The notes under the pieces are model-generated. The model made no database searches, was not told where the DNA came from, and saw only the letters and a program-made list of their open reading frames with translations. The position numbers and the translations under genes are program-made. Shown one piece after another: positions 6,372-33,442 of a stretch of DNA of 64,000 nucleotides (its first letter is position 1; every line of letters starts with the position of its first letter). The DNA comes from Pythium myriotylum (taxonomy: Eukaryota; Oomycota; Peronosporomycetes; Pythiales; Pythiaceae), in assembly GCA_023091665.1 (NCBI GenBank), contig JALJCQ010000012.1, positions 2,728,001 to 2,792,000 of the forward strand, in the 5' to 3' direction.

Positions 6372-9300
6372 ATCCAGTCACGTCAAGAGAGTTTGTGGGA
6401 CTCTTGACGAAGGCTGCTCCCAAAGCACAGTCTCTGTGCTTCGCCACACCTGGTGATGATGAGGCCCTCATCACCTTGGAGCTCGAAGTCGAAGGAGCTT
6501 CGTCTTCGCTTCGTGCCCTCGTAGACTGTGGGGCGTCGAATAACTTCGTTCGACGACAGTCTATCGAGTCTTTGGGGCTCGACGTAGTCGAGCGAGACAT
6601 TCCTCCGACGAGGATGACGGTGCGCCTTGCAACTGGAGCAACGGTGAAGGTTATGAAACGCGTAGTGGGCCTCCACTACACACTTGAAGGCAATGAGTAC
6701 GACGACGACTTTGTCGTACTCGACCTAGATGACAAGTTCGACGTCATCCTAGGCCTGCCATGGCTTCGTTCACACGAGCGATGGATCAGCTGGCGGCATC
6801 GATCCGTTACGATGCCCGCCGCTCGGTCATCAGGTGGCCACCTGATGTCGGTCCTGGAGCGTCCAGATGCACGTGGACGTGTGGAAGATGAGTGTGATGG
6901 CCTCATCAGTCACTCGGTCGTTAGTACGACTGTCCAAGACTACGACAAAGAGTCGACCTTTGTCGTCGAGCCAGCTGCCGGGGTCTGCGTAGAGTCGCAG
7001 ACAGCGCCGAAGACTTCTCGTGCGAGTGAGTCGCACGAGTCAAGTAAGGAAGATCCTCGTGCGAATAAGTCGCACGAGCCAAGAAGACAGTGCTTGCCAC
7101 AGGGGCAGCACTATGAGAGAAAGGCTTTGACGTCTGCCGCAAGGAGGCAACGTCGACTCTCCGCCTCGACTAGAACGTCGAGCGATGGAGATCTCGCTGC
7201 AGTTGCGCAACTGCAGCTCGAGGAGTCTGCGCGCATAAGGCCGCAGGAAGAGACTGAGACGATCAACGTCTTAGTCAATGACGGCACGAGAGTGGGTGCA
7301 TCCACTCTCGAGGTCGTTGCGCCTCCGAAGTCAACTTCGGAGATCACCGCACTGCCTACGCTCGAACTCAAGCGGTTCTTGCGAGATCTGCACCAAGGAA
7401 AGATCGCGCAGATCTGTATTCTCGTCGCGGAGGACGAATGTGTGACCGATATCCGGTCGGCAGTGGTGTTTGCTGAGAAGGAACGGCTTCTCAGCAGCTC
7501 ATCGATGGACGAGAGCGTCCTCGATGAGAAGACTCGGATTGAGCGGTACTCGGCTCAATCCTGGGAGTCGCTCAAGGGAAATCCTCTCTACGAGGATTTG
7601 GTCGAATTCGCGGATGTGTTCCCCGAATCCGTGCCGTGCGAATTGCCGAAGGACAAATGCATTCGGCACGAGATCGACCTGAAGCCAGGTTCGAAGTACT
7701 GTGTCATGAAGCAGTGGCCACTGCCTCGTGAACAGGTCGAAGCGATCGACAAGTTCTTCGCAGAACGTCTCGCTGCTGGCCATGTGAGGGAGTCTACCTC
7801 CCCTCACAGCTCTCCGACCTTCTGTGTGCGCAAGGCAACAGGAGGGTGGCGGATTGTACACGCGTTCAACAAGTTGAACGCGGCGACGATACCGGCGCAG
7901 ACGCCGATACCGAGGAAGGACGTCATCATCGACGGGATGGCGTAGAGCACCATCTTCTCGTCGATGGATCTGATGGACGGATTCTATCAGATCTTGATGC
8001 GTGAACGGGATATTCCGTTCACGGCCGTCAGCACTCCAAGCGGAATGCTCTGGGAGTGGTTGGTGATGCCTCAGGGCCTCAGCAACGCACCAGCCACATT
8101 CAATAGATGCGTCTCGCATCTATTGCGCCCAGTGCGAGCCTTCGCACCAAGCTACTTCGACGATGTCTTCGTTCATAGCCGAGCTATGGACGGGAAGACT
8201 GATCTGGAGGTTCACAGACTCCACATCAGAGAGGTTCTCACACTTATGCGAGAGCATAAGCTGTACGCGAACCTGAAGAAGTGTATCTTCGCGGCCAGCG
8301 AGATACCCGTTCTTGGGTGTATAGTCGGCAAGAACGGCGTGCGCCCTGATCCCGAGAAGATCAGAGCGATTAAGGAGTGGCCGACGCCACTCGAAGTCAA
8401 GGGACTGCGCAAGTTCCTTGGCCTCGCGGCGTACTTGCACAAGTACTCGCGCAACTACGCCGAGATGACTGTCCCTCTTTCTCGATTACTCAAGAAAGAC
8501 ACCAAGTGGACTTGGAACGCTGAGTGTCAGCGTTCCTTCGAAGGTATCAAGCAAAGCTTGATTGAATCGCCAGTTCTGGCGATCGCGGACCAGGACGAAC
8601 CATTTCACGTGGTTTGTGACGCAAGCGACTTTGCCATCGGCGCAGCGCTGATGCAGTTCGACGACGACGGCGCTGAGCGCGTCGTCTGTTACCAGTCGCG
8701 TCAGCTGCAACCAGCTGAGCGTAATTATCCAGTGCATGACAAGGAGCTCCTTGCCATGAAGTATGCACTGGCCAAGTTCCGCGTCTATCTGCTTGGAGAT
8801 AGACCGTTCAAGGTCTTCACAGACCATGCGTCCTTGCGCACGGCTGTGAACAGCCCACACCTCTCGCAGCGCATGGCGAGGTGGCTGTCTTTCTTCGCGG
8901 AGTATAACTTCTCCGTCGAGTACAAGCCCGGACGACTCAACGTCGTCGCGGATGCTCTGTCCCGTCGGCCAGACTTTGAGCCGACGGTCGTCGCCCAAGA
9001 TTCCCTGAACGCAGCGAGTGCGTTCAGCTCCAGTGTTCCGTCGTCGACCCTGCTCGACGACATTCGTGCTGCAAATGCACACGACCCCGAGGTCGTGCGC
9101 TTGATGGCCTACCTTGCGGAGCCATCGCCGCAAGCGTTGAAGGGCTTGCCGGCTTCGTATCGACCGGAGGTTCATCGATACACGCAGCGGAACGGCCTGC
9201 TGTTCTACAGCGCCGTTGCCGACGACACTCCACGTGTCGTCGTGCCAGGAGATCATGATCTGCGCCTGCGGATCATGTACGAGTACCACGATGCTCCAGT

Positions 9301-11151
9301 GAGTGGACATCGTGGACGTGAGAAGACATATCTCACGTTGAGTCGCGACTTTTATTGGCCTCGCCAATTTAAGTTCGTGCGCAAGTACGTCCGTGCTTGC
9401 GAGGTTGCCAGCGAGTGAAGTCGGGACCTTCACTTCGCGCGCCGCTACAGTCTCTGCCTGTACCAACTGAGTCCTGGGAGTCCGTCTCCATGGACTTCAT
9501 CTTCGGGTTTCCCGAAGATGAACAAAAGAACAACGGGATACTCGTGTTCGTGGATCGTTTCAGCAAGATGGTGCATCTTGCTGCAGTTCCAGAGACGATC
9601 ACAGCCGAAGGCTGCGCTCGCGTCTCCGTCGACACGGTGTTTCGACACCATGGACTGCCACGAGAGCTCGTGTCAGATCGAGACCCACGGTTTACCGCGG
9701 AATTCTGGCGCGCCGTGTTCCGTTCCCTCGGAACACGAATCAAGATGTCGACCTCTGACCATCCTGAGACCGATGGTCAGACAGAGCGCGCGAACCGCGT
9801 GATCGAAGAGATTCTTCGAGGCTACGTCCACTCGTTCTCGAGTTGGAGTGAGTTTTTGCCGATGGTCGAATTCGCCATCAACAACTCTGTGCATGCGTCG
9901 ACGACGCATACACCGTTCTACGTGAATGGCCTCCGCCATCCACGTATTCCAACCCTTTTGGAGAGTGAGTCTCCTTCAGGGGAGGGAGGGACTCGCTCGA
10001 GCGAGCTCCCGGACCGCTCTCGCTCCTCGGAGATCGACGTAATGGTCGATCCTCCCACCGATGACGCTCCAGTCATCGGTCGCGCTCGTGAGAACGACGA
10101 CGACGACGACGACGATGAAGCCGACGACGCGCTCGAAGTCGATGATGACGACTTCGACGGCGACGAGAGCGATGGCGCTCTCGTCGAAGAAGAGATGGAC
10201 GTCTCAGCAGCGCGCACGTCGCGCGCTGCTGCCAAGCAAACAGAGTCAGCAGAGGACTTCTTGCTGAAGCGCCAAGCGGTTGTCCGCTTTGTACAGGATT
10301 AGATCGCCCACGCGGTCGATCGACAGAAGATGAACGCAGACAAGAATGGAAGAGGTAACACTCTTTCATTTAATGAAGGTGACTTAGTGTTGTTATCAAC
10401 GACTACACTACCTACACATGCAGTTACCAACGTCGGTAGCAACAAGTTGCTACCGAAATTCATCGGTACGTTCCGCGTGCTCCGCCGCATGGGGCACGCG
10501 TATACGCTTGAGCTTCCTCGTAGGATGCGGACGCATCCTACGTTCTACTTTGGTCGCCTTCGTCCGTACCATCAGTACGACGGCGCTTCCGAGCAATCGG
10601 AATCCCCGAGCGCTCGAGAGTCCCGAGGAGAAGCTTGTACTCCCGGACAAGCGTGTTCAACTCCGCTTGAACACGGTCGTGCGAGCCCCGCAGCGTCGCC
10701 AGCTGCGCCTCCAGCCGCACTCGCTGCGACCGCTCCTCCGCAAGGTCTGCGCGGAGACGCTCCTGCGCAAGCTGGAGCCGAAGATCGTCCGAGTCGTCGC
10801 GACGAGCCGAGTACGACTCGTCGCGTTGAGGATACGTCGGCGCGGCCGGTGGATAATGTCTTCCCATCGCCGCCACCCCCACTGGTTGACTCCAGTGGTG
10901 CTGAGCGCTGGATCGTTGAGCGCTTGCTGAATCATAGGGATCAGCAGGGCGGTAATCGAACGAAGTATCTCGTTCGATGGCGCGGCTATCCGCCATCTGC
11001 GGATAGCTGGGAGCCGCGCGAGGCTCTCCTCGAAGATGTTCCGGGTCTCGTCGCTCAGTACGACGAGATCCACCCGCTGCGTAAGGCAGCGAGGAAGCAG
11101 CACGCTCCTCGCTCGCGCGGCGGCGCTCGTAGATTTGCTCGAGGCCTGTAA
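6335..11151 (+). pseudogene. pol: Gypsy-1 Pol polyprotein, broken
   Basis: Read in the -1 frame from gag. The aspartic protease has a D-C-G-A active site near 6525. A long linker follows, then reverse transcriptase with YFDD at 8153-8164 and RNase H with its D-E-D acidic residues (about 8590-8960). The integrase has a His/Cys zinc finger (about 9290-9410) and a D-D-E core (about 9490-9810). A low-complexity linker leads to a C-terminal chromodomain (10905-11050) that in relatives steers integration to modified chromatin. Breaks: an in-frame TAG at 7943-7945 inside RT; a one-base deletion near 9405 that changes frame at the zinc finger; and TAG at 10300-10302 after the integrase core. All catalytic residues survive, so the breaks look recent. 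Alternatives are suppressed stops or sequence errors. Confidence 0.88.
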
Positions 11152-13807: not shown

Positions 13808-13900
13808 ACTCTGTGGTATAGCGCCCCGATTCCGCGGGCATGAGTTTCTGCAAGCGCTAGGTGACCGGTCAGGCGAAGGTGTCCACGACCAAGTCCCAAG

Positions 13901-13959
13901 GAAGTGATCAGTCTGGCGTACCCTTAGTACCCAAGCCAAAACGAAGTGAACAGTCTGGC
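13901..13959 (+). promoter_or_regulatory. Dispersed motif pair 1 (LTR)
   Basis: GAAGTGATCAGTCTGGC at 13901 and GAAGTGAACAGTCTGGC at 13943, spaced 42 bp start to start. The first has TGATCA and the second TGAACA at the centre, the most common order in the element. Confidence 0.85.
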
Positions 13960-14244
13960 GCCCAAGTCAAGATTCCGTATTCCAGACTCGGCGGTACAAG
14001 TTATCGTATTTCTCTTTATTTAGAAACCTCACATAAAAACAGTAGGAGTAGGAACCTTATATTTGACAGATTTCAGTAGGTAGGAACGGGTGCTTGCCAC
14101 CCAATAACCCACGGAAAAGGGGGCGATTCTCCGCCGCTAATTCCGTGGGAGTCAGTCCACAAATTTTCCTCCTTCTCGCAGAAGCCCCCTGATTCCCCCT
14201 CAACAGTAGCCCGTCAGTATCTCGAGGAAGTTACTAAGAGTTTC

Positions 14245-14313
14245 GAAGTGATCAGTCTGGTCGATCGGCCGCCTATTTTGGGTACTGTCGCGATCCGAAG
14301 TGATCAGTCTGGC
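14245..14313 (+). promoter_or_regulatory. Dispersed motif pair 2 (LTR)
   Basis: Two TGATCA-type copies at 14245 and 14297, 52 bp apart, close to five helical turns. Confidence 0.82.
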
Positions 14314-14610
14314 CGAGAGCCGGGAGGTTTTGCCTGCGCTTCCTGCCAAGTTCCCCGTAGGAGTTCTCCAAGAGCTCCATCGTCTCCAAGCCGTTCTTTC
14401 TCGCTGCCTCTAGACTTGTGAGGGTCTAGTTGTAGTGTCGTGTCAGAGTTCCGGGTCTCCGCTTCAAAGAAGTTGTGATATCCGGGTCTGAAGCGAGTGT
14501 TCGAAGCACGCAAGATCCACCCCGTTTCCTGAGAATATTGTTGCCGTCGGCGACTCAAGAGCGAGCCTACATACGCCAGGTGCCCGTTTTTGATTCTGCC
14601 ACACGACAAC

Positions 14611-14623
14611 TGGTGCGTATGCC
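14611..14623 (+). other. Gypsy-2 primer-binding site
   Basis: TGGTGCGTATGCC begins two bases after the LTR. It contains the ATG (14619) that is the best gag start, so primer pairing and translation start overlap. Confidence 0.55.
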
Positions 14624-16505
14624 AGGAGCGGAGCCGTTAGCTGTTACGATACACGGTGAGAAGATGGAAGAGAAGGCAGAGATGCGGCAAGGTCAAGTCA
14701 CAGACCCGAAGAATGTTTCGATCCGCCTCGTTGTTCAAAGCGCAGTCCATGACACAACTCGGGTGTACCGACTGTCAGAAGCGAACGAAATCGGCCTTCG
14801 GTACCAACGACAGGTGCTGAAAATGCCGTCCGCCTCAGAATGCTGGTTTTCCCTGTATGAAATTACGAAAGTAGGGCCCACGACATTCTTTGCCGGTTCG
14901 CGACTGAGGGCGTCCACCTACGACTTCGCGACGATTGACGAAGCGATCGATTTTGTGGAGAAGATGTTGACGTCATGTGGTTACAATTTGTATCGGAGAA
15001 GCAATTACCAAGATGCAGTCTACCTGAATCCAGAACGGATGGCGCAGGACATGGGCTACATGATGTCAGTTCTGCTTGCCGAGTATGAATGGGAGACTAG
15101 CGTTATCCAATATCGGGAGGAGGACACAACGTTCGATCCGAAGTACATGGTCGTTGCTGACGTAGCTCACACTCCGCAGACCAAGCCGGCGAAGCCACGC
15201 TCGATGAAACGCTTTGATGAAGAATCCAGTTCAGATGAAGAAATTCAACTCGAGAGTCCGATCAGGAAGAAGCTGGAGTTTGCCAGTGATGAAGGATCCT
15301 TCTCCTCCCCCACGGACAAGATCAAGCGAAAGAATAACCCGCTGGCGACGAAGCTGATGGCGCTGACGGCCGGAGGGATGTTGTCGATGGATGAGTTATC
15401 AGAAGTGATACAAGCGCTGAGCCCAGATACCGCGAAGCGAGTTGCGGCCACGCGAGCCCCGGCGAAACAGACTCGAAGCACTAAGAAAGGATTCGCGCGT
15501 CTAGAAGATTCCGAGTCTGACGACGATGAACAGGACGAATCGTCTGATGAAGAGACTCTTAAACGCGTCAAGAAGTCTGTCAAGAAGCCGAAGAAGCCAG
15601 TCAAGCGCAGCGCTCGCCATTCAGATATGGAAGATGAGCTCGGTCTCTCAATGTATGAAGATTCTGACTCGGATGTGTCTGGACCTCGACGACGTGATCG
15701 ACATGTGACAACGGTCATCCAGAATGTCAATGTGAAGTCATTCAGTGGTGCCAAGGTTTTCCCGGAAGAAGCCAAGGCATGGCTCTCGAAGTTTCTTCAC
15801 ATCGCTGATCTGTCCAACTGGTCCAATCGTCAACGTCTCGGTTCGTTCGTAGACGCTCTCACGGGTCCGGCGAGGTATTGGCAGAAGCAGCTCCCTTCGT
15901 CAACAAGGAAGAAGTGGAAGCTCACGATGAAGGCCTTTTATCGAAAGTATTGCACTGAGAGCACGCCATCCACGCTCACGTATTACCGGCTAACTCAGAA
16001 GCCTGACGAGTCAGCCTTGGATTACTTCTATCGGTTTAATGCGGCAGGCCTTCGCGCTCGCATCGATTTCCGTGTAGATGATGACGATGACGAAGATCGT
16101 ATCCCGGCCGATTTGAAGGACCACATTCAGCAGTTCTTTGACACGCTACATGATAAAGCTGTTCAGTCCCAATTCCGTTACAGCAAGTACAAGTCGATTG
16201 ACAAGCTCGAGGAGAAGCTCGAGATGTACGAGAACTCCCAAGCGAAGCCAACGCCCAAGAAGCAGGCCAAGAAGCAACCGGAGGAGAGCAATGACCCACC
16301 TCCTGCAGTCAATAAGGTCAACGCAGGTCAGAGGCAGCAAAGCTCTAATGGTGGAAGTCAAGCTCATCAGACTAGCGGAAACGGTAATGAGGTCCGCTGT
16401 GAACATTGTGGCAAGTCCGGACATACCAAGGAAAGCTGCTTTCAACTTCATGAGTATGAGTTTTGCGGAGTGACTGGTCACACGATTCAAGTCTGTCGAA
16501 GATGA
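14619..16505 (+). CDS. gag: Gypsy-2 Gag
   Basis: A 628-residue Gag, much longer than usual. The N-terminal 250 residues are unfamiliar. A long acidic and Lys-rich low-complexity region follows (about 15210-15710), then a capsid-like domain from about 15730 (GAKVFPEEAKAWLSKFLHI and onward, the typical retrotransposon Gag helix pattern). A Gln/Lys-rich linker leads to a CCHC knuckle C-x2-C-x4-H-x4-C near 16400 and a second, degenerate knuckle lacking one cysteine spacing. The frame is open upstream into the LTR, but 14619 is the first ATG; the ORF ends at TGA 16503-16505. A 24-codon ORF starts with an overlapping ATGA. Pol is in another frame from 16552, so I cannot see how pol is reached in this copy. 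Confidence 0.88.
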   Translation: MPGAEPLAVTIHGEKMEEKAEMRQGQVTDPKNVSIRLVVQSAVHDTTRVYRLSEANEIGLRYQRQVLKMPSASECWFSLYEITKVGPTTFFAGSRLRASTYDFATIDEAIDFVEKMLTSCGYNLYRRSNYQDAVYLNPERMAQDMGYMMSVLLAEYEWETSVIQYREEDTTFDPKYMVVADVAHTPQTKPAKPRSMKRFDEESSSDEEIQLESPIRKKLEFASDEGSFSSPTDKIKRKNNPLATKLMALTAGGMLSMDELSEVIQALSPDTAKRVAATRAPAKQTRSTKKGFARLEDSESDDDEQDESSDEETLKRVKKSVKKPKKPVKRSARHSDMEDELGLSMYEDSDSDVSGPRRRDRHVTTVIQNVNVKSFSGAKVFPEEAKAWLSKFLHIADLSNWSNRQRLGSFVDALTGPARYWQKQLPSSTRKKWKLTMKAFYRKYCTESTPSTLTYYRLTQKPDESALDYFYRFNAAGLRARIDFRVDDDDDEDRIPADLKDHIQQFFDTLHDKAVQSQFRYSKYKSIDKLEEKLEMYENSQAKPTPKKQAKKQPEESNDPPPAVNKVNAGQRQQSSNGGSQAHQTSGNGNEVRCEHCGKSGHTKESCFQLHEYEFCGVTGHTIQVCRR

Positions 16506-17691
16506 AGATGCTCAGCCCAAAGCTCAAGACCGGCGAGATTACTGTGGATGATCTCGTTCGGCAGTTAAACCGCTAGCCCCGCAGCACTCTGCCAGTGATG
16601 TACGTGACGGGGACGTCGCGGCGACTTTGCATGTGAAGAAGATCCGGCGCAAATCGAAGAAATACCAGAAACAAAAGGCGCCTTACATTGATGGAGAAAG
16701 TGTTCACGTGGAAAATGGAGCGAAGAAACATGAAGAAACAAGTTATGATGACACTGTGCATGAAGAACTGAATGTATATGAAGATGCAGTCAAGGATGTC
16801 GCGCTACCTGCGGTGTTTGAATCGGTAGTGTCGACTGTGGATGAGAAACAAGAAGAAACAAGTGATGGAAACTGTGTATGTGAAGATGTATATATGAGAG
16901 AAGCTGTTGGTGATGAAGATGAAGAGCTGCATGTGCTATTATGCCCAATTGAGCCAATTGAAGAAGGTGACGAGGGCGCTTACGACGAAGATGCTGATGG
17001 AGGAGATATGAAGATGCCAAATGGTGCTCGAGATATATCTCTGCAAAGAAAGGTAACTCACATTCGTCTCGTTGGTGATGAACGACGAGGGTGGTGGAAG
17101 AACCACGAATTGTCAACGAACGAAAAGATACAAGCCTTCGTGCATGGTGCTGTTGAAGGACTCGAGATTCCGTTGATGCTGGATTCGGGAGCGAACATCA
17201 GTCTGTTACACACCAACTTGGCACGTAAGTTGGGGTTGAGAGTGCGGGCGTTCGAGGACTCGAGTGAATTCTTCGGTGTGAGCGAGGAACCGATGCAAGC
17301 GCACGGAAAGGTCATGGTGAAGATCCGGCTGGGAGAGTTCGTGGTGTACGAAGTCGAGATGTGGGTGGCTGAGTTTGAAGCTCACTCGTTGATTATTCTC
17401 GGCACCGACTTCATGATGTGCGCCGGGCTGAAGATCGACTTGGGCAAGAAGCGGTGTGAAGTGCCTGACGAAGATGCGTTGCCGCTGCTGAGTTATGGCG
17501 ATCTGCGCTGTGAGGTGTATGCGGCTTCGTATGACGCGGTGCGCTTGGCCGTGAGGATGCCACTCCTGCGTGGCAGCGACGTTGCTGTGCTGGTTGCTGG
17601 GGAGACCCGCCTCGAAGCGATCGGTCTGGAGTTGAGCAAGGGAGAGGCCACTAAAGAGGCGATTACGGAGCCGAATAGAAGCGCGGTCACC

Positions 17692-17789
17692 GAAGTGATC
17701 AGTCTGGCGGAATGTCTCAACCATGAAGAGGCCGAAGTGATCAGTCTGGTCCAGGGCAGAGCGGGAGCAACTGAAGTGAACCGTCTGGC
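17692..17789 (+). promoter_or_regulatory. Dispersed motif triplet 3 (inside pol)
   Basis: Copies at 17692, 17734 and 17773 (spacings 42 and 39) lie in the protease-RT linker. Here the motif is translated as E-V-I-S-L twice and E-V-N-R-L once. The third copy has CCG for CAG. Confidence 0.82.
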
Positions 17790-19243
17790 GGATGAGCGAG
17801 CGTTTTCACAGGTTTGCATGCTGGACGGACCTCTCCCTGAAGATCTGGATCAGTCGAAGTTTGCAAGGGAAGTCTACGTCCATGAAGGGGTAGAGATGTC
17901 AGTTGAGAGCATGAGAGAGCAGCTCGCGTTGCTACCTGAGTTTGACGAGGCCCCGCTGGTGGAAGTCGACATGAGTGAAGCCGACATCGGCGACGAAGAG
18001 ACGACGGCCGAGGAGATTGAAATGATCAGGGAAACGTTGGAAGCAAGGTCCGCTAGCTTTATTAGCTCCGGGAACGCTCTACCACCGCCAGCGAAAGGGG
18101 TCGTGTGTGACGTGGACGTCGGGGACGCGAAGCCGATCGCTCAAGCCGCGAGACGAGTGCCGCCGCACCTGCTGGGAAGATTGTATGAGTTGCTGCGCGG
18201 CCTCCTCCGACAAGGTTTGATAAGATATTCGAACTCACCGTGGGCATCACCGATCGTCATTGTGCTGAAGAAGAACGGGAAAGACATCCGTCTTTGCATT
18301 GACTATCGCCTTGTGAATGGACTGACGAAGCTGATGGTATACGCGATGCCACTGATAGATGACCTGCTCGACAACTTTGAAGGGATCATGTGGTTTTGCT
18401 CTTTGGATAATGCGAGCGGATTCTGGGCTGTACCTTTAACGGTCCGCGCGCGGCTGGTGACTGCTTTTATCTGCCCGCTCGGACACTTCGAATGGACGAG
18501 GATGCCTCAAGGTTTGAAGAATGCCCCACAGATTTACCAGCGCATGATTGATAACGCCGCCGGTTTGATGGCAGTGTTGGCAGCATCGATAACACCTGCA
18601 GAACAAATGGATGCAATACTCGAAGACATCGCGCCGATGAAGACAATTAAAGATATACCAGTCATTCGTCCCTTCCCTGATCTACGAAGAAATGCAGACG
18701 GATACGTGCTCACGTTCGATGGGGCAGTCAAGTTGAAGGGTACCCGGCCTGGCACGTTTGGTATGATCCTATGGAAACTGCCTGAGTGGAAGGTGGTTGC
18801 CGCGGAATATGATGTGAAGGAAGGGCTTACCGTGAACGACAGTGAATATCACGGCCTGCTCGGCGCACTCGAACTGGCAACGACGCGGGGTATCAAGGAG
18901 GTGCTCGTGTGTGGCGACTCCCGCCTGGTGATCGGGCAGATAAACGGTGATCTTCGGTGGAATCAAGCGTCGCTACAAGTCTGGCTGAATCGAGCGAAAG
19001 AGCAGCTCACCTTGTTCGACAGTGTGAGTTTCATTCACATCGCGCGCAAGTACAACCAGGCGGCAGACTTCCTCACCAGAGAGGCCATGCGATCCCAGTC
19101 GAGAGGTTCGGTCACTGATGATGCGCGCTTGCACGACTTGGAGCTTTTGAACACTCTCCCGGAGCTGTTGTACCGCGTGGACGATGAACACGTGTGCGAA
19201 GGAAAGCCGGAGGCGGAACCGGGGGCCACTATAATGGTAAGGC

Positions 19244-19341
19244 GAGTTGATCAGTCTGGCCACGAGGTCGAGCCAAATTCAGATCAACTGATCAGTCTGG
19301 AGCCGACTACCACCCGTGCAGAGCCAAGTGAACAGTCTGGT
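19244..19341 (+). promoter_or_regulatory. Dispersed motif triplet 4 (inside pol, different frames)
   Basis: Copies at 19244, 19285 and 19325 (spacings 41 and 40). They are read in two different phases, as V-D-Q-S-G, L-I-S-L and S-E-Q-S-G. The conserved part is therefore the nucleotide string, not a peptide. Confidence 0.82.
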
Positions 19342-21008
19342 GAAGAATCGCAGTCAACGTTGGAAGAGAAGAGCGAACTCGCGCCAGTCAAAGTGGCGAG
19401 CGGGCGCCAGGTGGCGGGATTGCATGACGGTCCAAGCTACGAAGTGTTTGTTGTCGACACGAGGAAGCGGACGAGGTCGAAGAAGGAGAGCCACACGAAG
19501 AAGCAAAAAGAAGGGTCGAACGCAGCTGACATTGGGACATTCGAGGATGATGGATCGAAGCCGGCCAGAGAATGGACACCATTGCATGTGAGTGGGGAGA
19601 TGCTAAGTCAAGCTCAGGTGGAGAGGTTCCGACGCGTGGCGGCAGCGCAACGCCGAGATGAATGGTGCAAGCAGGTAATCGCGTATCTCGAGGGCAGTGA
19701 GGAAGAGTTCTCTTCGTCGACCGCGCTCAAACGGGTAGCGCGGATTGCTGTTCTATATGTGCTCGACTCAGATGGGGTGTTGTACTACTCCCCTCAAGGA
19801 GGGAAATCGGAAGCTTTGAAGATGCGATTGGTAGTGCCGGACATTCTGCAGAAAGATTTATTATGCGCCTATCATGAAGAACTCGGGGCTGGTGCGCACC
19901 AAGGTGTGGGGGCGTGTGTTCGAGCGAATGCGCCGTCTATACTACTGGAGAGGCATGTATGCGGATGTAGAATGGTATGTTGCCTCGTGTGAAGACTGCG
20001 CCACTGCGAAGGGCAAGCCCCGATACAAAGGTCGATCCGGTGGCAATATTGTCGCGACCAGACCATTTCAGGTGCTCGCTATGGATTTCGCGATTCCCCT
20101 CCCCAAGACGTACAACGGAAATGAAGCCATGCTCTGTTGCATCTGCCTCTTCTCAGGTTTTGTGATTCTCATTCCGATGGCCGACACGACAGCGCAATCC
20201 GTTGCAGAGGCGTATTTGAGTGGGGTGTTCAAGCGATTTGGGGCCCAAGAAATGATTCGACACGACCGCGACCCGCGCTTCATGAGTTCTGTGTTCAAGC
20301 GATTCAACCGCATGATGAATCAGAAGCAGCGCCCTACACTAGCTTATCGACCGCAAGCGAATGGAAAACAGGAACGTTCTGTGCAGACTGTGGTGAGGGC
20401 GATCAAGTGCTATATTGCTGATGCGGAGCAGAAGGACTGGGATGAATATGTTCAGCAGCTTGAGTTGGCCCTCAACACGTCAGTGAGTCTACAGCACAAA
20501 CAGACTAGTTTTTACCTGGTGCATGGCTGGGATGCACGAACGCAACTGGAAGCAGCGATTCCCCCCAAAGATGCACGCTCAAGGAACGAAGTGCACTTGA
20601 ATGGCGACAGAAAATTGCAAAGCAGCATGAACAAGCTCAAGCGCACGCCGAATTTATTCAGCAGAAATTAATGGAAGAACGTGCGAGGAAGAACAACGAG
20701 CAGGCCGACGAGAATCTGCAGTCGACGGTGAGAACGGAGTATCAGCCAGGTGAGCTTGTGTGGCTGTATCACGTTTTGGTCAAGGAAGGGCTCGTGAGGA
20801 AGCTATCGCACCTGTGGCATGGTCCATATCAGATAGAAGAGCGTGTCAGTGAGTCGGTGTACAAGCTAAAGTTCGATCGGAGCGAGAGTCAAGCCATGCC
20901 GATGATCCATATCTCCCGGCTCAAGCCATTCGTCTCAAGGATGCGGAGGCCACGTGAAAAGATTGAGAGCATTCAGGACCTCGAGTTGGACGAAGCTCTA
21001 TTGCCTGA

Positions 21009-21114
21009 GGTGTTGATGACGAATATGAGGTCGAGAAGGTAATCGACTGCCGATATAAGAAGGTGTTGATGACGAATATGAGGTCGAGAAGGTAATCGAC
21101 TGCCGATATAAGAA
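21009..21114 (+). repeat. 53-bp tandem duplication in the chromodomain region
   Basis: 21009-21061 is repeated without change at 21062-21114. Fifty-three is not a multiple of three, so the duplication shifts frame and brings an early stop just before the chromodomain. The second unit restores the reading that leads into the chromodomain. Confidence 0.93.
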
Positions 21115-21332
21115 GCGGACGAGGAACGGTAGACGAATGCGCGAGTACTTGATCAAATGGGTCGGTCACGAGGAGCCTAAATGGGAGCCGGAAGAGAATC
21201 TACGTTGCAACGCTCTGTTGTACGAGTTCGACGCAAGACGGGCATGGGAGAATCGCAAGGAAGCTGCCCAGACTACTCATGAGGAAGAGGTTGATGAGAG
21301 TGATTCGAGTGACGAGTAGAGAGTGACCTGGT

Positions 21333-21391
21333 GAAGTGATCAGTCTGGTGTGAGAAGGTGCTCGGCGAGGAAACCAAGTGAACAGTCTGGT
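21333..21391 (+). promoter_or_regulatory. Dispersed motif pair 5 (untranslated)
   Basis: TGATCA-type at 21333 and TGAACA-type at 21375, exactly 42 bp apart, just past the pol stop codon. Confidence 0.85.
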
Positions 21392-21592
21392 CGGAGCGAG
21401 GTCACAAGAGTGAGGGGACGAGTCTAAAGGTGGACGGCGAAATGATGCGGAGCGCCGTGACCGAAGGAGAGACGCTGAGGAAGGAAAGACGATGAGGAGA
21501 AGGAGAGGAAGAAAGAGCTGAATCGAAGTACAGCTCTATAGCGACCTGACGCGGATCGAATACGTGGTAAGGTCAAGTTCTGGGGTTGAAAG

Positions 21593-22182
21593 GTGGATCG
21601 AACCCACTGTACAGCCCTGCGATGGAATCCGGCGCCGGGGGCCCAAGTTGGCTGCGGAATGCTGAGGTGCGGACCCGAGTTGGTTGCACAAGAAATCGCG
21701 AAGTTGACATGTGATGAACACGTTTCAAGGAGCTACGTTTTGTGGTGATCGCGTTCTGTCGTGGAGTATGCGGCGAATGGACCAAGTTTGAATATTGTAT
21801 TGTTGACATGGAAGCTACAAGCCTTAGGCGGTGCCAGTGCACTGGGTTGACCGAAAGGGGCTACGTCTTGACACGGAGACTGTCCGGCGAGACGACAATT
21901 GAGGTGATGTGGCGGGCGAGGTGGCGAGTGAAGCGCATGTTCGGAATCCGGCTGTCTGATCAACTACCGGTCGAAGAACAGAAGCGAGCACACGCACGTG
22001 TCAGCGAAAGTGGTGATCTGCTGTTGAGCCTGATCGGCGAAACAGTTTGGGAAGCGCGGACGTTGACCACCCCTGTCGTAGAAGCCTGAGAAGGAAATGA
22101 GAGAGTTAGGCGGACTCGGAGCGGATCGAACCCGCCGAGAGAAACGAGCGAGTTGAGATGGCTTGACGCGGACTGAACCCGC
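21593..22182. repeat. Three T-arm-like mini-hairpins
   Basis: 21593-21607, 22121-22135 and 22168-22182 each read as a 4-bp stem (GTGG/CCAC or GCGG/CCGC) around a 7-nt loop ATCGAAC or ACTGAAC. A fourth, imperfect one is at 21551-21565. On the minus strand they resemble the tRNA B-box (GGTTCGATCC). No complete tRNA surrounds any of them. Confidence 0.45.
21808..22089 (+). CDS. Small unidentified ORF in Gypsy-2
   Basis: 93 codons from the ATG at 21808; the frame is open from about 21720. The product is basic with scattered cysteines and no domain I know. It may be a remnant exon or a chance frame. Its only support is length and plausible composition. Confidence 0.25.
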   Translation: MEATSLRRCQCTGLTERGYVLTRRLSGETTIEVMWRARWRVKRMFGIRLSDQLPVEEQKRAHARVSESGDLLLSLIGETVWEARTLTTPVVEA

Positions 22183-22555
22183 TAAGAAGCCGCGGCGTTG
22201 TCGAACTGAAGGGCTCATTCGAGTAGATCAGTCTTGATGCGCCGGTTGAGAAGGATGAGGTAACGCAAAAAAAAAAAGCGTTAGCAGGCGTCAACAAATT
22301 GATGTTCTTCGCCGACGATAATTACCTTGGACGACGTCGAGAGACGGTGTGGGCTCGGAGTAGCAAGCAGGAGTGATCCTGGAAGGAGATGGCAGCGCGG
22401 GCGGAGGTTGAGAACGAGTGGCGGGCTTGGCGCACCAAGGCGCGTCGAGAAGCTTCAGGCTCGATCAAGAAATGGGAGAGGCCGGCCTTCCAATCATCCC
22501 AGCCAGAGGAACAAGTACACAACGGAGGGGTTACGCGAACCTAACGGTCCCAGGC

Positions 22556-22614
22556 GAAGTGATCAGTCTGGCGGACGAGGTGGAGGTCCCTAGAACGGAA
22601 GTGAACAGTATGGT
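22556..22614 (+). promoter_or_regulatory. Dispersed motif pair 6 (upstream of helicase gene)
   Basis: TGATCA-type at 22556 and TGAACA-type at 22598 (one mismatch, CAGTATGG), 42 bp apart, about 200 bp before the helicase start codon. Confidence 0.83.
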
Positions 22615-22720
22615 TGGCGAAGACCCAGCCCCGACGTCTAAGAACGTATAAGAACGTGTAAGAAGGGGAGAGCTCAATTGGGGCGTCAAGAAACTTTCAC
22701 TACGAGCGAGAAAATCGAGT

Positions 22721-22780
22721 GAGCTGAACAGTCTGGCGGAGATACCCTATCGAGGCCGGCGCGAAGTGATCAGGTCTGGC
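22721..22780 (+). promoter_or_regulatory. Dispersed motif pair 7 (just upstream of helicase start)
   Basis: TGAACA-type at 22721 and TGATCA-type with a one-base insertion (CAGGTCTGG) at 22763, again 42 bp apart. The ATG of the helicase gene follows 11 bp later. The order of the two sub-types is reversed compared with the other pairs. Confidence 0.82.
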
Positions 22781-24571
22781 GAACGGAACAATGGCAGCTG
22801 GCTTGAAGCGCAAGCGCGGGACTGACAAGGGCCAGGTGGAGGGCGCAGACGAAGGGCGGCAAGACGCAATCGAGACGCCGCCTGGAATTGAAGGAGGAGC
22901 CACGCGGCAAGGTACGCACCAAGAAACGCCGCTGCCCTCGACCTTCGCTCGACACACGACTCAAGATGAAGGAGATACTTCTGTCAACTCGCCAAGAGAG
23001 CTCGCTCGTGCTGGAAGCCAAGCTGAAGCCCCTGCTCGATCGGCTTTGAAGAAGAGTGCTGGCTCGCATTGGCCGGAAGGGCAGCTCAAGACGTTACGCG
23101 TCTGTACGAGCTGAAGGACCGCAACAAGTGGACGTGGGACCGGTTCGCTGAAGAATTCAACAAGATCAACGAAGTTACCGGACACCCATTGCGTGATGCT
23201 AATGCCTGCCGAGCTCGCTGCCAACGAGATCCAGAGTTGAGGAAGAATACAGAGCCCAAGCTCACCAAGTGGACGCCTGAGCAGGAAGCGTTTCTGACTG
23301 CAGAGAAGAAGGCGAAGACCTCGAACCGAGACATATATGCGAAGTATCTTGATAAGGTTCAGGCTCACGGGTGGGCACCTCGAGAGTACAAGACAGTGAT
23401 AACCAAGCTTTCCAGAATCTCAGAGCGGGATTCGAGTCGCAAGAGCAACCGTTCAAGCGACCAGGGGACGGCCACTGACCGACAAATGCTGACTATGGCG
23501 CGCCGAGTATGGCATCCCGACGAAGACGCCGTATTGATGAAGGCTCTACACGCGCATAAGGACGAGGGCGCAGCTATATGTCACGAAGCGATACAGAGCG
23601 AGCTCCTGGCCCTCGGAGAACGAGACGGAGTACCCATTGGTGACCGCACCATTGTGGCCATCAATAAACGACTGAACACCTTACGTGATGGGAAGCCCGA
23701 AGCGACGAAGCTGCCCAGACGGTGGACGGACAAGGACGATCAGCAGATCCGTCAAGCTATGAAGCAAGAGAAGCGGAAGCGCGGACAAGCAATTAAAGAA
23801 CTCTCGGCAGCGTTGGAAGTCTCCGAGTTTGCTGTGCGTCGTCGTTGGAAAGAGCTGAAAGTTATCGATGAGGAAGTCGGTGGTTCGACGGAAGAGAAGG
23901 AAGCCAGTCCAGGCCAAGGAATTCTCATCGAGCCGTTTGCGTGTGAGTCCAACCAAGGTGGTGCTACTCAGCCAGGGAAGACCGTTGCCCACTCGGAATA
24001 CACGATGCCAAGCGCCGTATTGGCTGAGACGCTGCTGGCCCTGCGATCTGACAGTGCGGAAGTCGAGAGCGTCGTCGAGAGTGGAGACGAGATCTTGTTC
24101 GAGGGCGTGAATGAAGAGTCAGATGATGACGCACCAACGAATGACCCAGCCAGACCTGATAAAGAAGACGTCGACCTTGCCGTGGCACAAGCTCTTGGCG
24201 ACGTGACGGCCATCGTAGAATACTGCAGCCAGCCAGCTAATGAAGAGTCGAAGCAGGACACGGACCATGGGATGAGCGGACAAGCAGGGAATCTGTCGAC
24301 GGTCTTGGAGCAAGAAGACGGTGTCAGAGCGACGGATGCGGGCGAGAGCCTTGAGGACAGCGCTAGGGTGATCGCAGGAACTACTGGAGAAACTCCAGCG
24401 CCCAGAGAGACTGAGACCCACGAACTGCAGGCTCCCGGAGGAGGCGTATGCGAAGGTGCCACGGACGAAACACCTTCAATTCCGGTGAATGAAGGCGTGC
24501 CAGCAGATACAGCCGACGTTCCGATTGCTCAAGCTTCGTCCAAGGCTGACGAAGTTTCCGACCACGCACCC

Positions 24572-24672
24572 GAAGTGATCAGTCTGGCTACCTCATTAGT
24601 GGACGGTGAAGACGAAGTGAACAGTCTGGAGGGTATACCAGAGGCCACACAAGCTGGAGTGAACGGTCTGGC
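24572..24672 (+). promoter_or_regulatory. Dispersed motif triplet 8 (inside helicase gene)
   Basis: Copies at 24572, 24614 and 24656, both spacings exactly 42 bp, in the acidic linker. They are translated as E-V-I-S-L, E-V-N-S-L and G-V-N-G-L. Confidence 0.85.
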
Positions 24673-24724
24673 GGAGGTAGCGAAGGCAACTAACTTGGTC
24701 GACCTTTTAGTGGACCCTCCATCT

Positions 24725-24783
24725 GAAGTGATCAGTCTGGCCAAGGAACCAGTCACCAGTCGAAGTGTAGTGAACAGTCTGGC
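24725..24783 (+). promoter_or_regulatory. Dispersed motif pair 9 (inside helicase gene)
   Basis: TGATCA-type at 24725 and TGAACA-type at 24767, 42 bp apart and 69 bp after the previous copy. Confidence 0.84.
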
Positions 24784-27590
24784 CCCTTCCGGGGGGCACG
24801 CTCCCTCCAGCTTGGAAGACCATGCCGCAGAGAGCATCAAAGGCAGATCCCACGAGATCCGAGGACCTCAAGACCCACCACACGCCGGGCCGATGATAGA
24901 AGAGGACGAAGTAGTTTGGCGAAATGCACACGATGGTGCACCACAATACATCACCGTCCGAATTGCTCCAGACCAATCAAGGAAAGTTCTCTCAGCCGAC
25001 ACATGTGATCGTTTGAGAGCAAGTGACCTCGCACCAGACTCCAAGTTGAGGATGTTCTACAAGGACAGTGAGCAGCGCGTGCAAGATATGATTGAAGGCG
25101 GCCTAGACAAAATGCGTCTTCTCGACGGTCCGGCACCCCCTGTCGACAAGTGTTTGCTGAGGGAACTAATGCTGGCCGGAACAATCCTCTCGCGCGGCGA
25201 AGAATCGCGCGCAATATTCTTGCGGGAGATGTGGACAGACAAGTACGGAGAGTGCCGGGACAAAGACTGCTGCTTGGCGTACGATGTGAACCGCCCGCAA
25301 TTCCAGTACGAAGGCGAGTGTAGACACTGGCGATATTTCAAGATGCGACGGGTCAACTTCGACTATTTCACGAGCGTGAGAGACTATCTGCTGGCGGGTG
25401 CGCTTGCGACGCATCTCGAGATGCTCTACGCTACTCAAGGCCCCGACTTGCCACCCATCAAGCGAGATGCGCAGTGTGTCCGGTTGAGGCTCTCAGGGGG
25501 ATCGATGACTAATCAGATGTCAGAAGAGTGGCCTGGCGGTGGAAGCGAAGGTGACGAACAAGGGAGCAATGGTGCAAGATCGGTGATCCATCTCCAGCCG
25601 TTGTTGTGCTCGATGACCACATTATACCTCTCTCTGGACATGACTACGGATCAGCAAGTCTGCGAAGCGCAGCTCTCGCCATGGGATTACGGTGCGGTAG
25701 TGGCAGGCGAGAGATACTTGCACGAACGTCAGGTACTGGGTCGCGGGGTGTTGATGAGATCTGGATCCCGGTGGTTTATAGTCACGAACGCGAGTATCAC
25801 GTCAGCCCAACCAAGCAGACTCGATTTAATGTGGGTTCCGAGGACAAGTCTATTGAACTACGTGCGACGTTTCCTGGCGATAGACCAAGCGGCATCGCGA
25901 CCTACGCCGCTCGTCACAGCGCTTGCCATGCGGGACATGCATCAGAAGGAACGCCCGCGACCTCAACAGACCCGAGCGAAGAGAGTGAGGATGTGGACGA
26001 AGTCGCTATTCCTGAGACCAAGTCAAATGAGAGTGGTCGAGGAATTTGTTACGAAGACTGGCATCATGCTAGTGCGCGGCCCGTTTGGCTGCGGCAAGAC
26101 GACGACATTGACGCGCGCGATATCTGTCCACCGTGAGGCGTACCCCAAGGAAGTGATTGCAGTCGTGTCTGAAACGAACGCCGCGATTGATGAGGACCTC
26201 CGACGGCTCCGGCAGAAGAACCTAGTGCCCGAAGATGAAATATTGAGGCTCGGGAAGTGTGATGCTCACATGCAAGAGTTTGCAGGGATCTACCTCGACG
26301 AACTCATGAAGAAAAGACGGGTATGAATAGAACGGATATACCCTGACCGGCCCGACATGATGGCACCCGAAATGAAGAAGTACGAAGACCATTTGCTAGC
26401 TCGAGCGAAGGTCCTTGTCGCCACATTAGCGACAATGGGGAGTGCGAAATTTCAGCATCTAGCGAATCACGTGGTGATCATCGACGAAGGCGCGCAGGTT
26501 GCAGAAGCCGCGGTGATCCAAGCTCTTCGCGAAGATACGCACACGCTGCTACTAGCAGGGGACCCCAATCAGCTGCGGGGGTACATCTCGCTGCCGACAA
26601 ATTTCGCTGAGAGGTTCCCCGGCGATGAGAGACGGCACAAGCTCAATTGGTCTGTGTTCCACACGTTCGAGCATTGTTACGCGTCTTACGGCATGAAGTT
26701 CCCGGGGCTAACGACGGAGGACATTTTTCGGTGTGGACCAGATTTGGTGACACTATTGCAACCCTTTTACGACTACCCGCTGCGCTCCGCTATCAGCAAC
26801 ACTCCAGGATATCTAGTTGGGATGCTGCTACCGCCTCTGCAGGATGACGCAAGTTGGTCTAGGGATGGAATCGAGAACGGACCGCCCCTGCCTCGAGGAC
26901 CGTCTGCAATATGGCTCGACTCGGGCAACGAAGGTTTTCACCCTGACAGGCGACGGAAATCTGCGAGCGAGGAGAACTTTGTGAACGTGATCGAACAAGC
27001 GCTGGTGATGGAACTGATCATGCGGATCAAGGCGCAACTCAAACTGCAATCCAAGATGACGCACAGAGTGTGGCGCAAGAGTATCCTAGTTATCTCCCCT
27101 TACGCGGAGCAGGTCAAGAGATTAAAGGAAGATGCTCTACAGTGGAAAAATCTCTACGAGAATTTCCTAGACGTAGAAGTGAAGACTGTGGACTCGAGCC
27201 AGGGGTGCGAAGCTGACATTACGATCACCTCGATGGTGCGTCACGTGAAAATGGGATTCTTGAAGAGTAACCCCTCGCAATTGCTGGTATCCCTGAGTCG
27301 TGCCAAGGAGTACATGTTCGTTCTCGCAGATGACCAGACTCTCGCTCAAGACAGCACGTGGGCGAAATTCCGCCAACAAGCGATTGACATGAGGATCACG
27401 TACGGGAGGTCGAGATGGACGCCAGAGGAAGCCGGCGCTGTGTTGAAAGACAAGGACCACATGAGGAAGCTGGCCAGCGCTAACGACTCGAGAGTCATTG
27501 GCGACGCCCAAAACGCAGTGCTGCTGTAAAGACGGGTGATCCAGGTGTGCTCGCTCTTCTTCGCGGTGCTGGAGCTTCGCAGGGGACGAC

Positions 27591-28387
27591 TGTGGTATAG
27601 CGCCCCGATTCCGCGGGCATGAGTTTCTGCAAGCGCTAGGTGACCGGTCAGGCGAAGGTGTCCACGACCAAGTCCCAAGGAAGTGATCAGTCTGGCGTAC
27701 CCTTAGTACCCAAGCCAAAACGAAGTGAACAGTCTGGCGCCCAAGTCAAGATTCCGTATTCCAGACTCGGCGGTACAAGTTATCGTATTTCTCTTTATTT
27801 AGAAACCTCACATAAAAACAGTAGGAGTAGGAACCTTATATTTGACAGATTTCAGTAGGTAGGAACGGGTGCTTGCCACCCAATAACCCACGGAAAAGGG
27901 GGCGATTCTCCGCCGCTAATTCCGTGGGAGTCAGTCCACAAATTTTCCTCCTTCTCGCAGAAGCCCCCTGATTCCCCCTCAACAGTAGCCCGTCAGTATC
28001 TCGAGGAAGTTACTAAGAGTTTCGAAGTGATCAGTCTGGTCGATCGGCCGCCTATTTTGGGTACTGTCGCGATCCGAAGTGATCAGTCTGGCCGAGAGCC
28101 GGGAGGTTTTGCCTGCGCTTCCTGCCAAGTTCCCCGTAGGAGTTCTCCAAGAGCTCCATCGTCTCCAAGCCGTTCTTTCTCGCTGCCTCTAGACTTGTGA
28201 GGGTCTAGTTGTAGTGTCGTGTCAGAGTTCCGGGTCTCCGCTTCAAAGAAGTTGTGATATCCGGGTCTGAAGCGAGTGTTCGAAGCACGCAAGATCCACC
28301 CCGTTTCCTGAGAATATTGTTGCCGTCGGCGACTCAAGAGCGAGCCTACATACGCCAGGTGCCCGTTTTTGATTCTGCCACACGACA
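27591..28387 (+). repeat. Gypsy-2 3' LTR
   Basis: 797 bp, shifted 13,779 bp from the 5' LTR with no difference I could find by eye. It carries motif copies at 27680, 27722, 28024 and 28076. A short purine run (GCAGGGGACGA) precedes it as a weak polypurine tract. ACTC follows at 28388-28391. Confidence 0.95.
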
Positions 28388-28391
28388 ACTC

Positions 28392-31466: not shown

Positions 31467-32367
31467 CCCTACCGTTCCTTTCAAAGCGAATCCACTCAAG
31501 TGGAAGTGCCTGGTTTGGGGTTCCAGGTTGAACGTCCCCAGAAAGGAGAATTTTATCGTCCACGAACTCAATCATATCCTCTTCTTCATCGACATCGCCT
31601 ACAATCTGAGCCATATCGCGTGCTTCATTGACGGCTGCGTCACACACCCAAAGTGAGGAACACCCTCGTCCCTACTTTAGGAGTAGTCGTGTCCTAAATA
31701 AGAAGCACGAGCCTATTCCAGTATGGAGTTTTCGGATGTGCAACAGAGTCGTCGGCGGATTTCAACACATTGACAGCGAGGTCGGGGCCCCACAGCTTCA
31801 GAGCGAGCTTGGCCCCGTCATATTCCTGATCCTCCAGCTCAAGTCGACCGACCAAGGCGTCATGCGCTTGCGATAATCGCAAATGGTGTTTTGGGTGTCT
31901 GTGTGGCGCTTTGCAGCCTACTCACCCAGGTATTGATTCGAGTTCAAGCTTTGGTGGAATAAGGGTAGATCTCGACATATAAGTATTATCAATGCGCCAG
32001 CCTCTTTTCCTGTTGACACTTCAACTTAGCGTTGCATCGTGCTTGTACCATGCATGGTTTGTGTTTTAGAAGCATTTCACCCGGTGCTCGTTCAAGGAAC
32101 CCTAACGGAGAAAATGGCAACACACTGGTTGAGACGAGTCTGAAGCCCGTATCAGATTTGTTCCGAAGCGAACAACGAAAGCGCTGCGAGATTCAGAACG
32201 GTGATATGGAGTTTGATTTTCTCGGGTACCCATCTCTAGAGAAAGGTATAGAGCGTGCCGTCGGCAGTGCAAAGTGCCAAGATTGTGACAACCTGGAGAC
32301 AGCGCGGAATGTGCAATTGACTGATCAAGTCGGATTGGCGGATTGGCGCGCCGTGGGGGAGGGGGTG
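31467..32367. other. No recognised gene
   Basis: Short open frames on both strands, including an acidic 61-codon minus-strand frame at 31462-31647 and a 62-codon one at 31694-31882. None has a domain I can name. The region ends where the first 459-bp unit begins. Confidence 0.5.
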
Positions 32368-33285
32368 CTCAAGCCAGGTTTTAACCCCAAAATACCGTCA
32401 AAATATCGTTTGATTGATTTCAGAAGTCGTTCAATGATGCCGTAGATACCACCATGTAGGAGTACTGTGGCGTTTCAATTACAAGCCGGATATCCCGTCA
32501 CAGCCAGCAAGCCCGAGGACAGGCGGTTTGAGCCGTGCGGAAAGCGTCTAAAGTATTACGCTTTCCGCACGCACCTCAAGGTCCAGCACCTCCAGCCCGA
32601 GGGTGTTGAGTACGACAAGTCGATGATCCGACAGTACAGTCGGGTCGTCGACGACTCGTCCACCCTAGAGGATATCGTCCAGCGTCTGACTGCGATTGAA
32701 GCCGTGCTGTGCGCAATCGCCGACCACTTCGAGATTTTGGATTTGGGCCGCGACGCGGACAGCACGACCTCAAGCGCGCGTAAGGGAGAGGGGTCCAGGG
32801 GAGAGAGCAAGGAGGGCAAGGAGGAGCTCAAGCCAGGTTTTAACCCCAAAATACCGTCAAAATATCGTTTGATTGATTTCAGAAGTCGTTCAATGATGCC
32901 GTAGATACCACCATGTAGGAGTACTGTGGCGTTTCAATTACAAGCCGGATATCCCGTCACAGCCAGCAAGCCCGAGGACAGGCGGTTTGAGCCGTGCGGA
33001 AAGCGTCTAAAGTATTACGCTTTCCGCACGCACCTCAAGGTCCAGCACCTCCAGCCCGAGGGTGTTGAGTACGACAAGTCGATGATCCGACAGTACAGTC
33101 GGGTCGTCGACGACTCGTCCACCCTAGAGGATATCGTCCAGCGTCTGACTGCGATTGAAGCCGTGCTGTGCGCAATCGCCGACCACTTCGAGATTTTGGA
33201 TTTGGGCCGTGACGCGGACAGCACGACCTCAAGCGCGCGTAAGGGAGAGGGGTCCAGGGGAGAGAGCAAGGAGGGTAAGGAGGAG
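32368..33285 (+). repeat. Two copies of the 459-bp unit
   Basis: Units 32368-32826 and 32827-33285, in plus orientation, differ at only a couple of bases (for example near 33210 and 33276). They are the inverted counterpart of the long array at 49265 onward. Confidence 0.95.
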
Positions 33286-33417
33286 GGGAGCGTGGATGGA
33301 AACGCTCGAGTAGAATGCGACGCCGACGCCGAAGTCGACTTTGGCACTGACTCGAGCGGCGACAAAGTCGTCCGGCTCCTCCCTTCGAAGCCGGACCGCC
33401 ACACAGACGAAGAGTAA
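32926..33417 (+). CDS. Unidentified ORF spanning the last 459-bp unit and its unique tail
   Basis: A 163-codon open frame in phase with the repeat, ending at TAA 33415-33417. It has no ATG at the start (the first in-frame ATG is about 50 codons in). It shows a C-G-K...H-x4-H half of a possible zinc finger, a leucine-rich helical stretch, and a Ser/Gly/Glu-rich acidic end. It looks like the 3' exon of a gene from which the repeat unit was copied. The inverted twin is 49133-49624. I do not recognise a family. Confidence 0.4.
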   Translation: MAFQLQAGYPVTASKPEDRRFEPCGKRLKYYAFRTHLKVQHLQPEGVEYDKSMIRQYSRVVDDSSTLEDIVQRLTAIEAVLCAIADHFEILDLGRDADSTTSSARKGEGSRGESKEGKEEGSVDGNARVECDADAEVDFGTDSSGDKVVRLLPSKPDRHTDEE

Positions 33418-33418
33418 G

Positions 33419-33442
33419 CCCCCCCCCCCCCCCCCCCCCCCC
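33419..33442. repeat. Poly-C tract
   Basis: 24 consecutive C. The inverted copy near 49112 is shorter and interrupted by one A. Confidence 0.95.

Follow-up and report, generated by a model that had tools for sequence, protein, structure and literature searches.

Paired, evenly spaced motifs accompany a Myb-like helicase gene in three related element families of Pythium myriotylum

A helicase-bearing Gypsy-type element and its motif array

The window analyzed here – a stretch of 64,000 nucleotides from the Pythium myriotylum genome (contig JALJCQ010000012.1, positions 2,728,001 to 2,792,000 of the forward strand) – contains a Gypsy-type element of 14.6 kb through which a 16-bp site is repeated, mostly as ordered pairs whose members start 42 bp apart. 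The element, the window copy of family A, is a Ty3/Gypsy-type long terminal repeat (LTR) retrotransposon with an extra Myb-like/Sen1-like helicase gene: it has identical 801-bp LTRs, and its Pfam domains run in the order gag, protease (PR), reverse transcriptase (RT), RNaseH (RH) and integrase (INT) (Table 1). Among relatives of its pol protein the best-scoring species-labelled sequences are Phytophthora proteins (P0004, P0006 and P0009); three matches score higher. The window copy is defective, because its Myb-helicase is split by a premature stop (sister copies hold an open frame of 1586 amino acids) and because its pol, in which part of RT is missing, is about 0.95 kb shorter than in four sister copies: the last site of the PR-RT linker lies 1471 bp from the first site of the RH-INT linker, as against 2417-2434 bp in C30, C12, C15b and C9a.

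The window has 15 exact copies of GAAGTGAWCAGTCTGG, every one of them plus-strand and inside the element, while 100 dinucleotide shuffles of the window contain none. With up to three mismatches there are 26 matches, compared to 1.2 expected from shuffles. The initial annotation of this DNA had listed 25 positions, and at each of these the plus strand carries the motif or a close variant of it: 15 are exact, nine carry one or two mismatches and one (22763) has a single inserted base. An additional site, with two mismatches, lies at 17614; a three-mismatch match at 27176 is probably due to chance. The sites form nine clusters, two of which are duplicated in the right LTR, and are located in the LTRs, in intergenic stretches and in the linkers that separate protein domains. 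Since the LTRs are identical over 801 bp, the four sites of the right LTR are not independent evidence.

The spacings first reported are correct, with 69 bp (24656 to 24725) and 78 bp (17614 to 17692) to be added, and the reported order – T in the first copy and A in the last – holds in seven of the nine clusters (the exceptions are LTR-b, with T and T, and 22721/22763, with A and T). Among the eight 42-bp pairs, no spacer is a copy of another (pairwise identity: mean 0.32, maximum 0.42). The mean identity nevertheless exceeds that of shuffled spacers (0.262; P 0.0005), and is 0.30 vs. 0.262 (standard deviation 0.018) when three bases at each end are removed: a weak old relation or shared composition may account for this.

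Table 1. Features of the family A element and of its motif array (positions in the window; E, E-value; ORF, open reading frame; SF1, superfamily 1).
Feature	Position	Strand	Remarks
Gypsy-type element (family A, window copy)	13811-28390	+	14.6 kb; bounded by LTRs
Left LTR, 801 bp	13811..14611	+	holds two motif pairs; 100% identity to 27590-28390
Right LTR	27590..28390	+	801-bp identity to left LTR
gag ORF	14475..16505	+	PF03732, E 1.3e-5
Protease-RT-RNaseH ORF	16552..19992	+	PF13650, PF00078, PF13456
Integrase ORFs (H2C2, rve, SH3-like)	19835..21042	+	Pfam domains
Weak Myb-like repeats and start of SF1 helicase	23027..26326	+	PF13086, E 4.1e-10; PF13921, E 0.0038, below cut-off
Remainder of SF1 (Sen1-like) helicase	26327..27529	+	same frame past premature stop; PF13087, E 5.3e-21
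Motif pair LTR-a, spacing 42 bp	13901..13958	+	14 aligned LTR rows: variable motif columns 1/32 vs. flank 46/167
Motif pair LTR-b, spacing 52 bp	14245..14312	+	14 rows: variable motif columns 1/32 vs. flank 30/177
Motif cluster, protease-RT linker of pol (17614 weak, 17692, 17734, 17773)	17614..17788	+	last three translate as EVISL, EVISL, EVNRL
Motif triplet, RNaseH-integrase linker (19244, 19285, 19325)	19244..19340	+	two frames: VDQSG, QLISL, SEQSG
Motif pair past integrase ORFs, spacing 42 bp	21333..21390	+	
Motif pair upstream of Myb-helicase ORF, spacing 42 bp	22556..22613	+	
Motif pair, second copy with one inserted base	22721..22779	+	
Motif triplet, Myb-helicase linker, spacing 42 and 42 bp	24572..24671	+	
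Motif pair, Myb-helicase linker, spacing 42 bp	24725..24782	+	
Motif pair LTR-a of right LTR	27680..27737	+	
Motif pair LTR-b of right LTR	28024..28091	+	

Family A sites are conserved at the nucleic-acid level

The genome searched comprises 58.7 Mb in 55 contigs and holds 352 exact copies of the family A motif (262 + 90; the reversed-pattern control gave 0); the early statement that no full copy lies outside the element is true of exact copies within the window. Motif pairs, searched at spacings of 23-53 bp, number 189, and among the 100 of these that were listed and counted by eye, 61 are spaced at 42 bp, 26 at 52, six at 39, four at 41 and one each at 51, 53 and 32. Because many are copies of the same few sites, the pairs are not independent. 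Lone motif copies also occur (e.g., C1:330412 and C13:2261590).

Constraint was assessed by aligning eight cluster regions over sister copies, with 14 rows for the two LTR clusters and 6-8 rows for the others. Variable columns are 24 of 352 in the motif and 342 of 1543 in the flanks. Mean diversity is 0.0225 in motif columns vs. 0.080 in flanking columns, and the observed value was not reached in any of 20000 circular mask shifts (p <= 5e-5), although the rows are related rather than independent and the sites were picked by their match in the window copy, which could slightly lower motif diversity. In the three coding clusters the third codon position varies at one of 60 motif columns, compared to 59 of 242 in the flanks (Fisher 8e-6; columns not fully independent). 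The sites of the RNaseH-integrase triplet are read in two frames, and the constraint thus acts on nucleic acid and not on protein.

In a diverged copy on C1 both LTR-a sites are intact though the upstream LTR flank is heavily changed. Loss of sites also occurs – the C1 copy retains little of the protease-RT cluster, and at the cluster that follows the integrase the W of the site is a C in two copies. According to the initial annotation, its reading would fail if sister copies lacked the motif or its phasing, or if the motif were common in other sequence; as far as this check was carried out the reading passed it, and the sister copies that were fetched mostly keep both sites and spacing.

Two observations concern the structure of family A elements. 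A perfect 53-bp tandem duplication in the window copy (21008-21115) overlaps with the first part of a short ORF, which we take to resemble a chromodomain. In addition, matches to the family A LTR recur every 21.4 kb over C22:650-812 kb, with a switch of strand near 745 kb, as if an element-bearing unit of 21.4 kb were tandemly repeated and inverted.

Two related families with their own paired motifs

A search of the genome with the helicase part gave 51 matches. Outside family A, the surroundings of six helicase places were read (C22:815, C3:1.13, C30:472, C26:1.719, C13:2.47 and C9:2.28 Mb). Two families emerged, B and C, which are related to A, have diverged Myb-helicases, and carry diverged motifs in similar pairs – a finding that supports the early interpretation of the array as one of protein-binding sites. 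The motif of family B (found on C22 and C3) is of the GAAGTTARCACTCTGR type and differs from that of family A, though the two are alike. On C22 there are seven sites with up to two mismatches, on one strand only, including three pairs at 42 bp; a count of seven is greater than that in any of 60 shuffles (maximum 5). When the genome was scanned for the pair pattern with any spacing from 25 to 53 bp allowed, all 13 hits were at 42 bp (control 0), representing three distinct pairs in 9, 2 and 2 copies. The pair is ordered, given that in two of three pairs the first copy has G and the second A at the T/A position of family A. The Myb-helicase on C3 was considered as part of a Helitron; this was dropped, because it belongs to a family B copy (98.9% identical to the C22 copy over 4854 bp) that sits beside other elements with Helitron-like ORFs.

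The motif of family C (found on C26 and C30) is TRCGATCACTGTCA. C26 holds 22 sites with up to two mismatches, 11 on each strand, with same-strand spacings of 51, 80, 61, 48, 51, 102, 51, 51 and 52 bp: five pairs are thus spaced at 51-52 bp, and these include antisense pairs within the Myb-helicase ORF. Across the genome, with 42-72 bp allowed, five of five pairs lie at 51 bp (control 0). On C30 two pairs fall between the end of the helicase and the start of gag, the position of an LTR, from which we infer the LTR status of family C. The suggestion that 42 bp corresponds to four turns of DNA fits the pairs with that spacing, but does not extend to the 52, 41, 40, 39 and (once) 32 bp also seen in family A, or to the 51-52 bp of family C. 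A near-palindromic word, GTAAAATTTACACG, forms a 61-bp pair at two places (C3 and C13) and is a weak candidate for what is possibly the paired site of another family.

The helicase part of the family A protein has the AAA_11 and AAA_12 domains, Walker A and motif II of Sen1/UPF1-like SF1 helicases; Walker A and motif II were also found in the helicases of B and C. Its solved relatives include 8ftm (named 5'-3' RNA helicase-like protein), followed by Helicase SEN1, NFX1-type zinc finger-containing protein 1 and NAM7/UPF1. In a protein search, words from the N-terminus of the whole Myb-helicase led to two helicase matches and the helicase part to nine, one of them named senataxin. The Myb-like parts of A, B and C have tryptophans at similar places. 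While pol of A and B is 72.5% identical over 1336 amino acids, identity falls to 21.6% over 287 amino acids of the Myb-like part; it is 30% over the 1031 amino acids of linker and helicase, and 37% over the last 400 amino acids of the helicase.

Three Gypsy-type stretches without helicase served as controls (5.0-11.5 kb of the window, a nested element on C3, and C29), and none has a comparable array. Top word counts on one strand were 4, 4 and 5, as against 24 in family A and 11 in family C. With 10-base words, C29 has 18 copies of one word (next 15) and the second Gypsy-type element of the window (5238-10302, no helicase match) has 16 copies of a simple CGA-rich word (next 12). Among the loci read, arrays occur only where a Myb-helicase is readable (three families; three control stretches without), and in these few families paired motifs are associated with the Myb-helicase ORF. 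Beyond this genome, a scan of viral contigs gave no motif pairs and a phage collection no match. In 24 related pol proteins there was no paired peptide trace of the motif, with isolated single matches in four; the two of these 24 relatives that were compared, P0001 and P0002, lack much of the motif-bearing protease-RT linker, and P0001 is also without part of the RNaseH-integrase linker, before which P0002 ends. P0002 and P0027, respectively a pol and a helicase relative of family C, are both on contigs of 22,028 bases, and probably belong to one element of another genome.

Separate from these elements, the window holds a satellite with a 459-bp unit, of which there are 32 nearly identical copies (49265-64000), with about two inverted copies 16 kb away (32355-33437).

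A candidate system of self-recognition

The presence of evenly spaced pairs in three related families suggests that each family tags its DNA for recognition by a protein of its own making. According to this hypothesis, which we put at a probability of a little under 0.6, the paired sites of each family would serve its own Myb-like helicase, a fast-evolving protein. The Myb-like part, as a dimer or multimer, would bind the paired sites of its family; the tethered helicase might then keep the chromatin of the element open, or clear RNA:DNA hybrids or small-RNA-guided silencing, and might promote transcription from the LTR. With a different motif in each family, the effect would be limited to copies of the element itself. 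The sites of family B all have a single changed motif in common, as expected of a family-specific trans-acting reader and not of one host factor. In P. sojae, centromeric regions rich in transposons are described as bearing the heterochromatin marks H3K9me3 and H3K27me3 (PMC7082073). We hold more tentatively, at slightly worse than even odds, to a broader proposal: a superfamily of oomycete-type LTR retrotransposons would possess a family-specific address code, made of paired, spaced sites placed in LTRs and coding linkers regardless of frame. The reader of this code would be the fast-evolving Myb-like/Sen1-like helicase that the element encodes, acting on the element itself to counter silencing or to activate, and protein and code would diverge together such that each family activates only itself.

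Several results weigh against self-recognition. The Myb identity is its weakest link: PF13921 matches the Myb-like part of A and B only below cut-off (E 0.0038-0.013) and that of C not at all, no solved relative of the region was found at E below 0.39, and single-sequence models – weak evidence either way – are poor for the whole region (pLDDT, the predicted local distance difference test score, 47.8) and show the best repeat as one long helix instead of a three-helix Myb (pLDDT 87.4). Helicase motif VI was matched in A only and motif V in A and B. Fast divergence is not special to the Myb-like part, as gag of A and B (one fragment compared) is 35.9% identical over 117 amino acids. The 42-bp pairs of family B do not exceed shuffles when all spacings are considered (with 42 bp taken alone, a count of three is reached in 11 of 1000 shuffles), and the count of its sites is unremarkable: C29, which has no helicase, also reaches seven (both strands; a near-palindromic word at six places, with no fixed spacing), and controls from the window give counts of 9 and 12 for words that are repetitive or simple. 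The case for family B thus depends less on count than on its spacing, its strand bias and the resemblance of its motif to that of A. Between C26 and C30 the family C motif differs at one of 252 positions and other sequence at 111 of 8663 (p 0.38). No such array was found at the helicase relics on C13 and at C9:2.28 Mb (stops in the helicase), or at the Myb relic at C12:2.98 Mb; and the families compared are three, from one genome, with A and B closely related.

Two of these relic loci have repeats of their own. At C9:2279001-2286500 about five tandem units of 1.46-1.48 kb adjoin the helicase relic, and C12:2981001-2990900 contains short tandem runs of a 15-16 bp word; these are present twice, 4.6 kb apart, an arrangement like that of the LTRs of another element.

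The most serious rival, though clearly the less probable reading, is that the sites bind a host protein – a transcription factor, insulator or architectural protein – and were gathered by the element for its own expression. Paired, spaced and conserved DNA sites in LTR and body would look identical in that case; however, a single host protein would keep the motifs alike, whereas A, B and C differ within one genome, with one motif per family, and the restriction of arrays to loci with a readable Myb-helicase is likewise at odds with it. Less likely again is a role in replication, integration targeting or recombination rather than in expression, which would agree with the distribution of sites along the whole element, with a protein that includes a helicase, and with the 21.4-kb steps between family A LTR matches on C22.

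Action of the motif in RNA (packaging, export, stability, or a landing site for Gag or the helicase) appears slightly more doubtful still. The copies found in families A and B are on the sense strand, in keeping with such a function, but recognition in RNA is disfavored by the family C sites, which lie on both strands and include the antisense pairs noted above, and fixed spacing with dissimilar spacers better fits double-stranded DNA. We reject the remaining reading, by far the least probable, in which the motif is a protein repeat (EVISL/EVNSL) or a decayed minisatellite. It would draw on the shared frame of 10 of the 12 sites in two ORFs (each with respect to its own ORF), on 42 being a multiple of three, and on spacers slightly more alike than shuffles; yet sites at 42 bp also occur in both LTRs and between ORFs, frames differ at 19244-19325, third codon positions are constrained, identity between any two spacers does not exceed 42%, and Tandem Repeats Finder does not detect the motif as an array.

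Self-recognition of this kind, if true, would explain why an LTR element retains a large helicase gene, and would provide a clean case of regulatory DNA maintained within coding sequence; three related families in one genome would moreover allow a direct test of co-evolution between protein and motif. Searches of open-licence papers gave no title or abstract opening with a report of such an array, or of a Myb-helicase in an oomycete LTR element. A run of binding sites in a Gypsy-type element is also known from Drosophila gypsy, where the sites form one compact cluster and are bound by a host protein, Su(Hw); here the putative sites extend along the entire element and are different in each family. 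SEN1/senataxin and UPF1-type SF1 helicases, the solved relatives of the helicase part, are host helicases and are not known to have an N-terminal Myb-like part. As for foamy virus Tas, we know of no paired, evenly spaced 16-bp array or helicase in that system, and the protein is unrelated. The likeness is that of a retroelement-encoded factor that acts on an LTR promoter and an internal promoter, as two reports describe it (PMC8670036, PMC4929722).

The closest parallel is with the anti-silencing VANC proteins of Arabidopsis VANDAL elements, which bind short motifs in their own elements, with motif and protein varying between families (PMC5735166, PMC10398659). In both cases a short motif is repeated through the element and differs among related families, and VANC proteins have highly variable regions. 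Differences are nonetheless substantial: VANDALs are Mutator-like DNA transposons and family A is an LTR retrotransposon; the VANC21 motif has 9 bases and the sites here 14-16 bp; and VANC targets are tandem repeats in non-coding DNA, whereas Tandem Repeats Finder detects no array here, spacers are dissimilar and many sites are coding. Fixed pairs at 42 or 51 bp, together with a Myb-like/Sen1-like helicase as the predicted binder, further set these families apart. Because element class, protein and layout differ, the paired array is not a member of the VANC/VANDAL system, even though the logic is alike. Sequence-specific self-recognition by a protein of a transposable element has been described for a plant DNA-transposon system (PMC5735166, PMC10398659); the same logic in LTR retrotransposons of distant eukaryotes, if true, would amount to a convergent strategy.

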